Part shown: piece by piece, positions 58,220 to 64,000 of the stretch
Numbering within the stretch: the stretch's first letter is position 1
How the letters are laid out: each line of letters starts with the position of its first letter
Source: Glutamicibacter nicotianae
GTDB lineage: Bacteria > Actinomycetota > Actinomycetes > Actinomycetales > Micrococcaceae
Direction of reading: 5' to 3'
Assembly (NCBI RefSeq): GCF_006539525.1
Contig: NZ_BJNE01000001.1
Location: 248,001-312,000, forward strand
DNA length: 64,000 nt
Notes under the pieces: model-generated
Databases searched by the model: none
What the model was told of the DNA's origin: nothing
Seen by the model: the letters and a program-made list of their open reading frames with translations, nothing else
Program-made: the position numbers and the translations under genes

Positions 58220-58396
58220 CCATTAAGTGGGACCACCATCATCCACGCGTTACCACGAGCACATAATGTTTCCACAAGTCACACCGCGCTATAGTTCCCA
58301 AGCAGTGGCCGCCGCGGCCTACATGGTGTTCAATAAACCCATGCGCCACATCTCTCTTCCATCAGCACCTTGCTATCGGCAGGGGCGTTACTGAAA

Positions 58397-58951
58397 ATGG
58401 CCCGTATCGGTCTCCTCCGCATTGGCGATGACCCCGACGATGCTCGATTACAGAGAGAAGCGTTGGCTCCCCATTGTTCAGACATTGTCGGGGAACCGGC
58501 ATCCCGCCGACGACTCGTGCAGAATCGCCCTGAGCTCCTCACCGCACTGGCCAAGGTCGGCTCCGACGACATGCTCGTCGTCTCCCGCGCCCGCAGGCTC
58601 GCCCAGCACACCGATGATGGCCTCGCCGTCCTCATCGACATCATTGACCGCGGAATCACCGTCAAGGTCCTCAACGGCATCGCCGCCGGAGAACACACAC
58701 TGCGCTCCCCCGCTCTCGACTTCGTCCGTGAGCTCACCCGAGTTCGCCACGAGATCCAGGTCCAGCAAATCAGGGCTGGTATCACGGCAGCGCGCGAGCG
58801 AGGAAGGACGCACGGACGCCCGGTCTCCATCGACGAAGAAATGAAGCGCACGATCAGGCTGCGACATTCTGCCGGCAACTCGATGCGAGCGATCGCCCAG
58901 GAAGTCGGCGTGTCCGTCGGCAGCGTGCATGGGGTACTGCGCAAGGCATGA
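58397..58951 (+). CDS. Serine-recombinase-like protein lacking the catalytic serine
   Basis: A 184-aa protein with the small resolvase layout: N-terminal catalytic-like domain, long helix (about 115-135), and C-terminal HTH (AGNSMRAIAQEVGVSVGSVHGVLRK). DMLVVSRARRLAQ matches the resolvase arginine motif and IDRGITVKVL the next strand. The start reads MARIGLLRIGDD where resolvases have IGYARVST; the catalytic Ser position is Gly10. It may be inactive, a regulator, or a diverged family. It lies 177 bases from the truncated trmH gene, at the island edge. Confidence 0.75.
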   Translation: MARIGLLRIGDDPDDARLQREALAPHCSDIVGEPASRRRLVQNRPELLTALAKVGSDDMLVVSRARRLAQHTDDGLAVLIDIIDRGITVKVLNGIAAGEHTLRSPALDFVRELTRVRHEIQVQQIRAGITAARERGRTHGRPVSIDEEMKRTIRLRHSAGNSMRAIAQEVGVSVGSVHGVLRKA

Positions 58952-59254: not shown

Positions 59255-59992
59255 ATGGAGCTTGCGTTCAAAGATGAGCGAGAAATCGTGGATCACGCGA
59301 AACAGCTCGAGGACGCCGAAATCTGCTTCTTCCCAGCTGTGAGCGATCTCGCACACCGGGTGCTTAAGTCGCTGCGCGGCACCTCTCTCACGCACCGCGA
59401 GCGTCCCGATTTTGAGGATCTCCCACACTCACTCCTGCTGGAGGCGATGCAGGTAGACGACCATCCTCGGCCGGGAAGAAAAGATGCCACTCGAACCCGC
59501 GAAGGATCGGTTCTGCGAGAGTTACGTGAGCCCGGATTCGCAGAGATATTCGCGAACGCCTCGCTCATAGCCAACGTAAACACGCAACTTCCCACAGATA
59601 AAGACCACAACTACCCGGCATACCTCACACAGTTTGCAAAGGTCATCGGTGATCATGCCAGGAAAGTCACCGACTACCGGGAGAGGCGTCCCGGCTTTGA
59701 TCTCGGGTTTCTGATTTTTGACGAGTCCACCGCCTACATCGAAACACTCGGCGCGTTCGGACCGGATCACCAAGGCAGGCCGCATGTGTGGTTCGCAGAT
59801 ACAGCCTTTGCCGAAATCATACAGGCCGCCGGAATCGATTGCGTCGCGTGGCTGACGCCCTACAAGGTCGTCCTCGGCGCGGACGGGACACACTACCCGC
59901 TGCCGCAACTGACAATCATCGACCTGAGTCTGATCGACGACCAGTCGCGTGTTCCCTATGATGCGAAGCGCATGAAGTCCGCCGAGTCCTAG
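59255..59992 (+). CDS. Protein of unknown function in the defence island
   Basis: A 245-aa soluble protein with a good GAAAGGAATCAG site before its ATG. I do not recognise the family. The first half is charged and helical. The second half has a mixed alpha/beta pattern with hydrophobic strands (LGFLIFDESTAYIETLG, WFADTAFAEIIQAAGI, CVAWLTPYKVVLG) that could be a nuclease-like or sensor fold; no catalytic motif can be claimed. Codon use is less GC-biased than the core genes. It lies between the recombinase-like gene and the minus-strand ATPase/HsdR pair. Confidence 0.7.
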   Translation: MELAFKDEREIVDHAKQLEDAEICFFPAVSDLAHRVLKSLRGTSLTHRERPDFEDLPHSLLLEAMQVDDHPRPGRKDATRTREGSVLRELREPGFAEIFANASLIANVNTQLPTDKDHNYPAYLTQFAKVIGDHARKVTDYRERRPGFDLGFLIFDESTAYIETLGAFGPDHQGRPHVWFADTAFAEIIQAAGIDCVAWLTPYKVVLGADGTHYPLPQLTIIDLSLIDDQSRVPYDAKRMKSAES

Positions 59993-60294: not shown

Positions 60295-62853
60295 TCAGGA
60301 CGATTGGTACTTCTTGACACTCTTCAACCAGCCATCGAGCACATCGATTTCGGCCCTTAGAGTCTCGACTGATGGCGGAGTGTAGTTCAGCTCGGGGTGC
60401 GGGTCGTGACGGGCCGCCCAACCGGAGATCCGACTGTAAGAATCGTCATAGGTCTTTACGTCCTCAGCTGTGACGCGTCCGATGACCCGCAGCTTCCCTA
60501 CTCGGACTTCCAAGGATTTATAGTCGACCAAGGGCTCAGCGAGTACCTGGCTGATGATGCGCTCCCAGGTCTGGGACATGTGACCTGCGATCTCCTCCGT
60601 CTGCTTCTGGTACTCCGCCTCGGACATCCCTTCCTCGTCACGACGCAATGCCGCCACCTCTTGGCGCAGAGTGTCCACGCGCTGCGCTGCGTTTTGTGCT
60701 GTCCACGGGTGATTCAAGGTCGTGAATCCGGGACCGACCTTCCTCTTCCGTTCGATGCCGCGAGTGGTGAACAAGACAGCTGAAGCATCTGCTATTTTAC
60801 GAAGCATCATAGTGAATGCGATGTCATGCGTGAACACGATGACCTGCCGCTCTCCCGCGAGATCGACGATCCGCCTGGCTACTGCCTCACGTCGCATGTG
60901 ATCGAGCGAGGAGACAGGGTCGTCGAACACTAGCGCGGACTTGCTTGTATCGAAATGCACCTCAGTCAGGAACCCCGCGAAGCCAAGGGCAGTCTGCTCG
61001 CCCTCAGAAAGAACTGCCCGGAGGCGCGCGCCCGTTCGCGCGTTCAGAAAGTCGGCCTTGTGCATCAATCCCATACCTTGACGCGACTTGGTGGCCTTGA
61101 ATGTGACGCGCTCGAGCTCCAGCCGGTCTGTCTCATGGGTGAAACGGTCACGTGCTTCCTCTGTCAGGTACTTCTTCGTCAACTGGCCGACCTTATCAGT
61201 GATGGCACGCGTATTCGTCTCCGCGAACTTTTCGTTCAGCAGCATGAGTTCCCGAAGCCGGTCGCGCTCTGACACGATCAGGTGCTTCCCGTCGCGCATC
61301 GCGATCTTGTCCCGCAGCCGGCTCTCTTCAGCCTGGGCTCGGGAAAGGATTTCGGGGAAGTCAGCAGCATCGAGCGAGCTGATCTTATCCCGGAGGCCTT
61401 GTACTTGGGAGTCAAGCAACTCAATCTCAGCGGCGACGCCAACGTCTGATAGTTGTTCGTTGGCGATCATCGCGGCCTGCCGGTCGCGGAATGCGTCGAG
61501 CAGCACCTGAATCCGGGCGGCGAATCCAGGTTCCGATTGTTCTATCGTCGCGATGGCCACCGCCAAGGGTTGCGTCTCGATCGGCTGCTGACCAAGTGCC
61601 GCCAGGAACGCGTCGAGCTCAGTCTTCGCCGTCTCCGCGTCCTGAGCTGTCGTATCCGAGACGAACGCATGGAATCGCTCAAGCCGCTCCGCGCCTCCGC
61701 CATCGAGAGACTGCTGGCACAAGACGCACACGGCTCCGTCATCTGCACGCGGGAACTCGTGCTCCGGGTAGACGACGAGGGAGTACTTTTCCGCCGCCTG
61801 CCAAAGCGCTTTCCAGACCGGCGAGCCGACCCCGGCGAGCGGTTCGTCTCCGAACGAGGTCGCTGAGGCGGCATCCGCTGCCTGCTGAGCCGTGCTCGCC
61901 ATCTCGCGCAGTTCCCCGAGCTTTCCACGCACGTCCGGTCCGAATGCGCGATCGAGATTGCTGAGGTGTTTGGACACCTCGCCGAGCGCTGCAGCCGCGC
62001 GGTTCAGCCTCTGCTTCTCTTGCGCGGGATCCGCGGTCCGGAGCCGAGTCACTTGGTCGACCTGATCGCTTAGCTTCCGGTCGATGTCTTGAGGGCATGA
62101 GACCGCAGCGGCAATCTCTGCGTCCGTCGTCTGCGCCGTGAGTGCCTTCAGGAACACCGCCGCCGAGCCCTGCTCGCCGACGACCGGGAGGGTTCCGGTT
62201 TTGTCCTTCTCCATCTTCCACCCGTCTATGACGCGTCGTACGCCCGCGGTCACGCTCGAGAGATCGTCGAGAAGCTGCACGGCTGAGGGCCGGTAAGAGA
62301 TCTCCGCCTCTTTCTCGAGATAGGTGTCCCCGCAGTGCTCGTCATAAAGAGCGACTCGACCAAGAGCGGGATCTGCCGTGGCCCCGAGTGACGAAGTCTG
62401 TTCGACCTCGCCGACGAGGAACGCTACTTCGCCGGACTGCTCTCCCGTGGATTCAGAGAACACATCAGGGAGGATGTCCGCCCGGTGACGCGCCCGCACC
62501 ATTGACTGCAAGATCCGCGCATATCCGGACTTGCCGCTGCCGTTGTTACCGTAAACGACAGTCAGTCCCTCAGGTGCGAACGTCAGCTCTTGGTTCTCAG
62601 CCAGTCGATTGACGTTCGACACGCCTTTGACCGCGAGGAGGCGCACAGGCTCGTCGTAGGCGCTTTCAGGGGCGGTGACCGAAGCGAGCCATCCACCTTC
62701 AGGCGCGACAGTTGGCTTCTCGAACAGGCTCTTGGCGATCTCTTCGTATTCGTTCTCGCTGACCGTTTCGCCGGCAGCGATGCGCGCCAGTGTGCGCTGT
62801 TGCCACCAGGGACGGGTAGCGATCCATTCGAGTACGTCTTCGTAAGCGGTCAC
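60295..62853 (-). CDS. SMC/Rad50-like AAA ATPase with zinc hook (AAA_13, RloC/PrrC-type)
   Basis: An 852-aa protein with a split ABC-type ATPase. Walker A GNNGSGKS is at 102-109, coiled coils span about 255-330 and 405-560, a zinc-hook-like CVLC is at 376-379 between them, the signature LSEGEQ is at 615-620, Walker B ALVFDD at 640-645, and a switch His at 676. About 160 residues follow, ending with a conserved-looking HD (816-817). RloC anticodon nucleases share the zinc hook and linkage to type I restriction genes, but I do not find the PrrC/RloC Arg-x3-Glu...His triad, so the effector is unknown. GTG start; 74 bases after the hsdR gene on the same strand. Confidence 0.85.
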   Translation of the reverse strand: MTAYEDVLEWIATRPWWQQRTLARIAAGETVSENEYEEIAKSLFEKPTVAPEGGWLASVTAPESAYDEPVRLLAVKGVSNVNRLAENQELTFAPEGLTVVYGNNGSGKSGYARILQSMVRARHRADILPDVFSESTGEQSGEVAFLVGEVEQTSSLGATADPALGRVALYDEHCGDTYLEKEAEISYRPSAVQLLDDLSSVTAGVRRVIDGWKMEKDKTGTLPVVGEQGSAAVFLKALTAQTTDAEIAAAVSCPQDIDRKLSDQVDQVTRLRTADPAQEKQRLNRAAAALGEVSKHLSNLDRAFGPDVRGKLGELREMASTAQQAADAASATSFGDEPLAGVGSPVWKALWQAAEKYSLVVYPEHEFPRADDGAVCVLCQQSLDGGGAERLERFHAFVSDTTAQDAETAKTELDAFLAALGQQPIETQPLAVAIATIEQSEPGFAARIQVLLDAFRDRQAAMIANEQLSDVGVAAEIELLDSQVQGLRDKISSLDAADFPEILSRAQAEESRLRDKIAMRDGKHLIVSERDRLRELMLLNEKFAETNTRAITDKVGQLTKKYLTEEARDRFTHETDRLELERVTFKATKSRQGMGLMHKADFLNARTGARLRAVLSEGEQTALGFAGFLTEVHFDTSKSALVFDDPVSSLDHMRREAVARRIVDLAGERQVIVFTHDIAFTMMLRKIADASAVLFTTRGIERKRKVGPGFTTLNHPWTAQNAAQRVDTLRQEVAALRRDEEGMSEAEYQKQTEEIAGHMSQTWERIISQVLAEPLVDYKSLEVRVGKLRVIGRVTAEDVKTYDDSYSRISGWAARHDPHPELNYTPPSVETLRAEIDVLDGWLKSVKKYQSS

Positions 62854-62927
62854 TTTGTCTCGTTCCGTATGAGGTGGTCAGGGATGGCCTGGGCTCGTGC
62901 GAATTCCGTGGAGCGCTCCCGGCGAGT

Positions 62928-64000
62928 TCAGGCCGCGTTCGTCCGGTAAGTTGCCTTGAACACGGCTTCTTCGAGCCAGTGTTTGAAGCTCTCGTTGTCC
63001 TGGAAAGCCTTGAACAGTTGCGTCTCGTCGGATATGAGGCCGAGCATGGCTTTGCCCAGCGCCCTGTTCATCTCGACGCGGGCGTTCACGGGGTCATCAT
63101 TGGCCTGTGCGTTGCGGTACGCCTCGTCTTCCGCGACCAAGCGAGGGATTTCCTCCGTTATGCGACGCTGGATCCGGTCGCTGTCTTCCCACTCGATGTT
63201 CCCGAAGTAGTCATTGAAGCTCTTCACGATCTCCGAAAGCCTCTCAAGCTCGGCGTCGGCACGATGCCCGCCGCCTGCAGCCGGGACGGGAGCGAGCTCA
63301 CCGTCCTCGTCGTCGAGCACGATCTTCATCGCATTCTGCTTCTCGGCCCGGTACGATTCCAAGTCGATGTTCTCCAGAATGCCGGCTGCGAGGTCCTCCT
63401 CCTTAGGCGCAGGAAGCTTCGGTACGAGATGGTCGAGGAAGATCGATCGCTTCTCCCATTCGAGGCTGCCGTAGGGAAGGACGGTGGACAGGAAGTTATA
63501 GGTGCGCAAGAACGCCTTGGCGTTGGCCTTGAACGACACTTGGTCGTCTTCGTCAGGAAGCTCCACGTATTCGGCCACGCAGACGTCAAGGAGAGGATCC
63601 AGCTTTTCGCGGCTCTCCCCCGCCAGGTAACGCGTGACGAACTTGTCGACATGTTCGGGCGTGTAAATGGGGGCTGCGTCAAGCTCAGTGACGAGGTCGT
63701 GCAGCTTGTTCGGGTCGGTTTCCTGCGCCAGCAGTGTGGTCCGATAGTACGGCTCGAATGCACGCTGTATATCCTCGGCGTCGTTAGCGAAATCGAGCAC
63801 GAATGTGTCGTGCTTCGCGGGGTGCGCCCGGTTGAGCCGTGAAAGAGTCTGTACGGCGAGCACGCCGGAGAGGGTCTTGTCCACGTACATCGTGTGAAGG
63901 AGCGGCTCGTCGTAGCCCGTCTGGAATTTGTTCGCGACCACGAGGATCCGATACGGCTCCGTCTTCACGTGCTCCGCGATGGCGTTCGAGGGGAATCCGT
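62928..64000 (-). CDS. hsdR: Type I restriction enzyme R subunit (HsdR), C-terminal part
   Basis: The last 357 codons of a helicase/translocase subunit; the frame is open to the right edge, so the N-terminal nuclease and first RecA domain lie outside. VKTEPYRILVVANKFQTGYDEPLLHTMYVDK is motif V, and QTLSRLNRAH is motif VI with its arginine finger. The remainder is the helical C-terminal region that binds the methylase core, ending in the DNESFKHWLEEAVFKATY tail. It is EcoR124-like. hsdM and hsdS should lie to the right. Confidence 0.9.
   Translation of the reverse strand, partial: GFPSNAIAEHVKTEPYRILVVANKFQTGYDEPLLHTMYVDKTLSGVLAVQTLSRLNRAHPAKHDTFVLDFANDAEDIQRAFEPYYRTTLLAQETDPNKLHDLVTELDAAPIYTPEHVDKFVTRYLAGESREKLDPLLDVCVAEYVELPDEDDQVSFKANAKAFLRTYNFLSTVLPYGSLEWEKRSIFLDHLVPKLPAPKEEDLAAGILENIDLESYRAEKQNAMKIVLDDEDGELAPVPAAGGGHRADAELERLSEIVKSFNDYFGNIEWEDSDRIQRRITEEIPRLVAEDEAYRNAQANDDPVNARVEMNRALGKAMLGLISDETQLFKAFQDNESFKHWLEEAVFKATYRTNAA

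Follow-up and report, generated by a model that had tools for sequence, protein, structure and literature searches.

The stretch of DNA analyzed here, referred to as the window, comprises 64,000 nucleotides of the Glutamicibacter nicotianae contig NZ_BJNE01000001.1 (positions 248,001 to 312,000). Close to its right end, a minus-strand open reading frame (ORF; 60295-62853) with a GTG start encodes an RloC-like protein of 852 residues. A sequence-only reading of the window had described this protein as a Rad50/SMC-like ATPase with a CVLC hook, encoded behind hsdR on the same strand, and this description proved correct, the two genes being separated by 74 bp. The protein matched Pfam AAA_13 (59 bits for a cut-off of 36) as well as SMC_N, and none of the families shown in an NCBIfam scan came near its cut-off. 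When the family profile was compared with solved structures, the best match was a Rad50 ATPase. The motifs expected of such a protein are listed in Table 1. G102, N104, G105, G107, K108, and S109 of Walker A were invariant in the 13 aligned rows, and both Cys of the hook were present in 56 of 57 rows, the remaining one being a fragment with a gap at this place. Trp10 and Trp17 of the N-terminal extension were kept in 15 of 16 aligned rows. Full-length relatives with 77-81% identity were found in other genomes of the same family, including Arthrobacter and Tersicoccus (by matching coordinates), and the ratio of nonsynonymous to synonymous substitution rates (dN/dS) over the whole gene was 0.12-0.13 in two comparisons with the window gene, indicating that the ORF is a real gene.

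The edge of the window falls within hsdR, the complete gene (62928-65870 in window numbering) encoding HSDR_N, SNF2-type helicase, and T1R_D3 domains. The order of the operon is hsdM-GmrSD-hsdS-hsdR-RloC-like gene. The called ORFs of the first four genes overlap by 4 bp at each junction, and a simple consensus scan of the 74-bp gap revealed no promoter- or terminator-like site. The RloC-like gene is probably transcribed as one unit with the four others. GmrSD genes embedded in type I operons have been published (PMC11411939). TgvAB and RloF are GmrSD-type genes within type I operons, and the GmrSD gene likewise stands here between hsdM and hsdS; this parallel concerns the GmrSD gene, not the RloC-like gene.

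Table 1. Features of the RloC-like gene and its operon (window numbering, except where a locus handle precedes the coordinates)
Feature	Coordinates	Strand	Remarks
RloC-like ABC ATPase, zinc hook and C-terminal HEPN-like domain	60295..62853	-	852 aa; Pfam AAA_13, PADLOC PDC-S06 PDLC04891
N-terminal extension, residues 1-70	62644..62853	-	from Walker A position compared with RloC-type rows
Walker A, residues 102-109 (GNNGSGKS)	62527..62550	-	motif scan and alignment
Zinc hook CVLC, residues 376-379	61717..61728	-	sole CxxC in the 852-aa protein
ABC signature LSEGEQ, residues 615-620	60994..61011	-	motif scan and alignment
Walker B and D-loop, residues 640-651	60901..60936	-	motif scan and alignment
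C-terminal domain, residues 691-852	60298..60783	-	helical in predicted model, HEPN-like; dN/dS; register with RloC-type proteins
Ser760, column of RloC triad Arg	60574..60576	-	aligned with R706 of RloC-type protein
Glu764, column of RloC triad Glu	60562..60564	-	E in 60/60 rows; aligned with E710
Arg815, directly preceding His816	60409..60411	-	only in Ser760 group
His816, column of RloC triad His	60406..60408	-	H in 60/60 rows
hsdR, 3' part inside the window	62928..64000	-	gene runs on to 65870; 980 aa in all
hsdS	L002:8868-10256		upstream of hsdR
GmrSD gene	L002:10253-12118		past the window's right end; 621 aa; GmrSD_N 116 bits, GmrSD_C 34 bits; PADLOC best HEC-06
hsdM	L002:12115-14136		upstream of GmrSD gene

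The protein matched the PADLOC candidate class PDC-S06 (models PDLC04891, 04893, 04888, and 04892) over its full length, with 582.6 bits for PDLC04891 over residues 3-848 of 852. Five RloC-type proteins that we scanned gave their best scores (457-1048 bits) with other models of the same class, so that the 'new effector type' suggested by the sequence-only reading did not hold. 'RloC-type' is a label that we derived from the R-x3-E...H motif and from the PDC-S06 match of the five scanned proteins, not from experiment. PDC-S06 itself is a candidate class listed without a mechanism. For strain PA14, two RloC proteins appear in Table 1 of PMC2610378, and two PDC-S06 systems are counted in PMC11878078.

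Further evidence for the kinship with RloC was obtained from a full-length profile alignment of 60 family rows with 27 RloC-type rows (E 1.8e-35), in which Cys376/379, Walker A, the signature, Walker B, and His676, carried by the FTHD loop of the ATPase head, were all in register; 176 residues follow His676. The family alignment omits the two-piece genes L019, L030, L044, and L046 (L and G designate our loci and genomes), L101 (the first part of the split G633 gene, which is represented by its second part, L109), the contig-end fragment L042, L048, the repeat fetches L006, L011, L095, and L096, and the RloC-type set. From the latter, near-copies and fragments among the distant matches were left out. 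A plain pattern search found R-x3-E-x36-56-H in the last quarter of 25 of its 27 rows, the exceptions being L049 and L091, and the pattern matches in L059 need not be the catalytic motif; a control alignment and model were made with 23 of these rows, leaving out L049, L050, L059, and L071. RloC, known from Geobacillus kaustophilus and Acinetobacter baylyi as an anticodon nuclease that excises the wobble nucleotide, shares the Rad50-like ATPase interrupted by a coiled coil that bears a CXXC hook. The window protein also fits its size range (658-897 aa) and shares the GTG start seen in 13 of 70 rloC genes, both figures being those of PMC2610378. It differs from RloC in about 70 extra residues ahead of Walker A, a trait of its family. 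Counted in stop-to-stop frames, 37 of 38 family rows had Walker A starting no earlier than residue 102, the frame of the other one opening at the end of its contig, and 26 of 27 RloC-type rows had it at 31-78, the pattern not being found in the last. PrrC is likewise an ABC ATPase with an anticodon-nuclease triad, encoded in a type I operon, but its 341-416 residues (PMC2610378) lack the insert of coiled coil and hook, and the PADLOC PrrC model matched only residues 613-685 of the window protein (17.9 bits).

The catalytic motif of RloC reads Arg-X3-Glu-X36-52-His, and replacement of Arg692, Glu696, or His737 by Ala abolished the activity of the Geobacillus enzyme (PMC2610378). As stated in the sequence-only reading, which also placed His816-Asp817 correctly, the window protein has no complete triad: a pattern search downstream of residue 685 did not find the literal R-x3-E-x36-52-H, and Ser760 occupies the column of the Arg. 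The Glu and the His are in register with those of RloC-type proteins. His816 fell on H751 of such a protein in two of three alignment modes, and the span aligned in the third did not include it. In most rows of a 16-row alignment, L-R-x-x-W-E-R was followed further on by a Ser and, within a few residues, by a His. In the 60 rows, the Arg column contained 47 Arg, 12 Ser, and 1 Lys (in a 57-row alignment, 45 had Arg760, and Glu764 and His816 were invariant), and the distance from Glu to His was 48-53 residues, 51 in the window protein, as compared with the published 36-52. The Rx4-6H motif of HEPN proteins was absent, R815 adjoining His816 and R808 being separated from it by 7 residues. The Lys belongs to L010, a distant member on a long branch, and Cys replaces Ser810 in L009, L035, L040, L041, and L043, which indicates that the surroundings of the active site also vary elsewhere in the family.

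The predicted model of residues 686-852 was helical (mean pLDDT 82.0). Its top Foldseek match was a HEPN protein (2hsb), with a weak E value of 0.15. It had the same order of helices as the predicted C-terminal domain of an RloC-type protein; in both models, the second long helix carried the motif, and the His came 2-3 residues past the next long helix. The C-terminal domain alone is too diverged to give a clear match with the RloC-type domain (E 0.0092, 0.058, and 0.12). Thus, a C-terminal match to the RloC nuclease, which the sequence-only reading had named as a refuting result, was present in the register of the full-length proteins and not clearly so in the isolated domain. The last 160 residues are no longer 'unexplained': 60/60 rows have the triad Glu and His and 47/60 the Arg, in register with RloC-type proteins. 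As judged from the alignments, these residues most likely represent an RloC-type HEPN ribonuclease (RNase) domain. We class the window protein within PDC-S06 as an RloC-like ABC-HEPN protein that probably works like RloC. Because the triad Arg is absent, we did not file it as RloC.

The 12 rows with Ser760 all had an Arg directly before the catalytic His, as opposed to 0 of the 48 others, among which 47 have the triad Arg. In a quick tree from which both columns had been excluded, these 12 rows formed one side of a branch with an SH-aLRT of 100, indicating that the Ser/Arg exchange is one event, not twelve. The group comprises five sublineages that share 35-52% identity. Ser760, Glu764, Arg765, Arg815, and His816 did not vary in its 11 tabulated rows, but 31 of the 163 positions of the C-terminal domain were invariant in these rows, so that invariance of a single site is not remarkable by itself.

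Selection was assessed with three close sequences, the window protein (P0001), L004, and L005. The dN/dS of the core (residues 746-825) was about 0.04 in all three pairs, its dS being near saturation (~2.2) in the two pairs with the window gene. In these two pairs it was 0.04-0.06 for the ATPase lobes and 0.23-0.26 for the coiled coil, and residues 691-852 gave 0.05 with the window gene. For the pair L004-L005 (dS 0.45), the values were 0.037 for the core versus 0.30 for the coiled coil. The dN amounted to 0.08-0.09 for the core, 0.05-0.07 for the ATPase lobes, and 0.19-0.20 for the coiled coil. The low dN/dS of the core indicates that the C-terminal domain is under purifying selection and not decaying. 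In one HEPN family, the His has been kept and the Arg lost, other conserved basic residues possibly substituting for it (PMC3710099). Because of this precedent and of the purifying selection on the core, we favor a variant active site over decay in the Ser760 group, and predict from the alignment that Arg815 (or Arg765) replaces the lost Arg.

The distribution of the family is patchy. Draws of genomes at the different taxonomic levels overlapped and included the window's own genome. PDLC04891 matched 5 of 396 genomes of the phylum (E ≤ 1e-40), and the window protein matched 2 of 18 of the genus (E ≤ 1e-40). With the limit set at E ≤ 1e-30, the counts for the protein were 16 of 395 in the family, 9 of 396 in the order, and 4 of 394 in the class. 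Matches were found in 171 of 72,556 plasmid records (E ≤ 1e-20), 9 of which were fetched, and in none of 50,697 phage records (E ≤ 1e-5). Virus contigs provided 70 loci, distant ones included.

Linkage to type I genes was assessed by searching for HSDR_N and N6_Mtase in 43 genomes or records, many of them fragments. It exists in other genomes, as the sequence-only reading required, but only in a minority: type I genes adjoined the relative in four cases, including the window, the others being G405, L033, and the Moellerella plasmid L020. In G405, which belongs to the same genus, the relative (27% identity) likewise directly follows hsdR. Occasional linkage to restriction-modification loci is shared with RloC, for which it has been described as rare (8 of 73; PMC2610378). 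In the Ser760 group, the partners varied between loci. They are type I and GmrSD genes in the window; L004 has an EcoRI-type methylase together with a GmrSD_N-HNH protein and a protein of 412 aa, and L122 has Res and a methylase that is type III-like. In L123, the gene of a 646-aa AAA_15 ATPase lies directly upstream, and HamA and a helicase are encoded on the other strand; the ORF lengths of L123 are repeated in L124 and nearly so in L121. This ATPase gene overlaps the relative by 4 bp (L123:4882-9386; L124:8504-13008), and together the two genes may form a unit next to a Hachiman-like system. No restriction-modification gene was seen among the subset of ORFs scanned in L005, L117, and L118-L120; in L118, an HNH nuclease gene is found two genes downstream of the relative.

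Two relatives are interrupted or split: in G633 (L121:8210-11685), a DDE transposase ORF lies between the two pieces, and on the Arthrobacter plasmid pA58H2 (L019:8953-11758) the gene is annotated as two overlapping ORFs. Near the locus in the window, a short resolvase-type recombinase is encoded at 58370-58951 (+), and recombinase genes were also present near the relatives in L013, L019, and L118. A 245-aa ORF (59255-59992, +), convergent with the RloC-like gene, gave no match in Pfam, NCBIfam, or PADLOC with E ≤ 0.1.

Taken as a whole, the data make it likely that the gene encodes an RloC-like ABC-HEPN defense protein of PDC-S06, in the same operon as a type I enzyme and a modification-dependent nuclease of the GmrSD type, which protein would act as an ATP-gated anticodon RNase with a shifted Arg. 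RloC was the right comparison, and a second-line effector tied to the restriction operon, as originally suggested, is still the best reading. The roles of sensor and switch would fall to the Rad50-like head, with Walker A at 102, the signature at 615, and Walker B at 640, and to the hook-bearing coiled coil; the helical C-terminal domain would be the effector. In the resting cell, the RNase would be held off by the ATPase head, possibly under the control of the restriction-modification proteins. The ATP state of the head would be changed by breaks in phage DNA, by anti-restriction proteins, or by an alteration of the restriction complex, and the released RNase would then cut tRNA anticodon loops and halt translation. 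In the Ser760 group, the positive charge would come from Arg815, beside the catalytic His816, Arg765 being a second candidate. More tentatively, a group of RloC-like proteins in Actinomycetes may have shifted the catalytic Arg from the Arg-x3-Glu helix to the residue before the His (S-x3-E ... RH), and may form a last line behind type I plus GmrSD, type II-like, and type III-like restriction.

The main rival to a variant active site is that the Ser760 group has lost RNase catalysis, the HEPN-fold domain only binding RNA and the ATPase being the acting part, for instance as a sensor of DNA or of the restriction complex, or as a modulator of HsdR. The Arg that is essential in the tested RloC is indeed Ser760 here, and the window protein and the three relatives closest to it have Tyr in place of Arg778, which 53 of 57 rows carry. 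We nevertheless regard this as unlikely, in view of Glu764 and His816, which all 12 Ser760 rows retain, of an Arg815 that is exclusive to these rows, of a core that evolves almost as slowly as the ATPase lobes, and of the HEPN family mentioned above that lacks the Arg and keeps other basic residues. It is also rather improbable that the RNase has a target other than tRNA anticodons, such as mRNA or rRNA, or that the HEPN domain performs another chemistry. HEPN RNases do include enzymes that do not act on tRNA, for example RNase LS (PMC3710099), but RloC and PrrC, which come closest in architecture among the characterized relatives, are both anticodon nucleases.

A Rad50/SbcC-like DNA repair protein located after hsdR by chance, with no role in defense, would account for the zinc hook, the SMC_N and AAA_13 matches, the Rad50 ATPase as best solved structure, and the repair genes near some relatives: genes for a DNA repair exonuclease and a YhaN-family protein immediately upstream in L018, preceded by BREX genes, an SbcCD subunit D gene with an adjoining ATPase gene a few kb downstream in L015, and DNA-repair genes downstream in L016. 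The exonuclease genes of L018 and L015, however, each adjoin another possible ATPase partner, and the other neighbors of relatives are restriction-modification, Hachiman-like, or BREX genes. Presence in so few genomes of the family also argues against a repair protein, as does the conserved C-terminal domain, a region described as missing from Rad50, SbcC, and gp46 (PMC2610378). We consider this explanation very improbable.

With the window protein read as an RloC-like RNase, the operon brings together a system that restricts unmodified DNA, one that probably restricts modified DNA, and what is probably a suicide RNase. The residue-level evidence ties PDC-S06, a widespread candidate defense class, to the RloC anticodon nucleases. 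For the HEPN active site, the Ser760 group represents a natural experiment: an Arg reported to be essential is gone, and a new one has become fixed next to the His, within a domain that shows no decay. An active RNase would mean that the Arg can come from another place; an inactive one would mean that a protein linked to restriction keeps a dead nuclease for another purpose.

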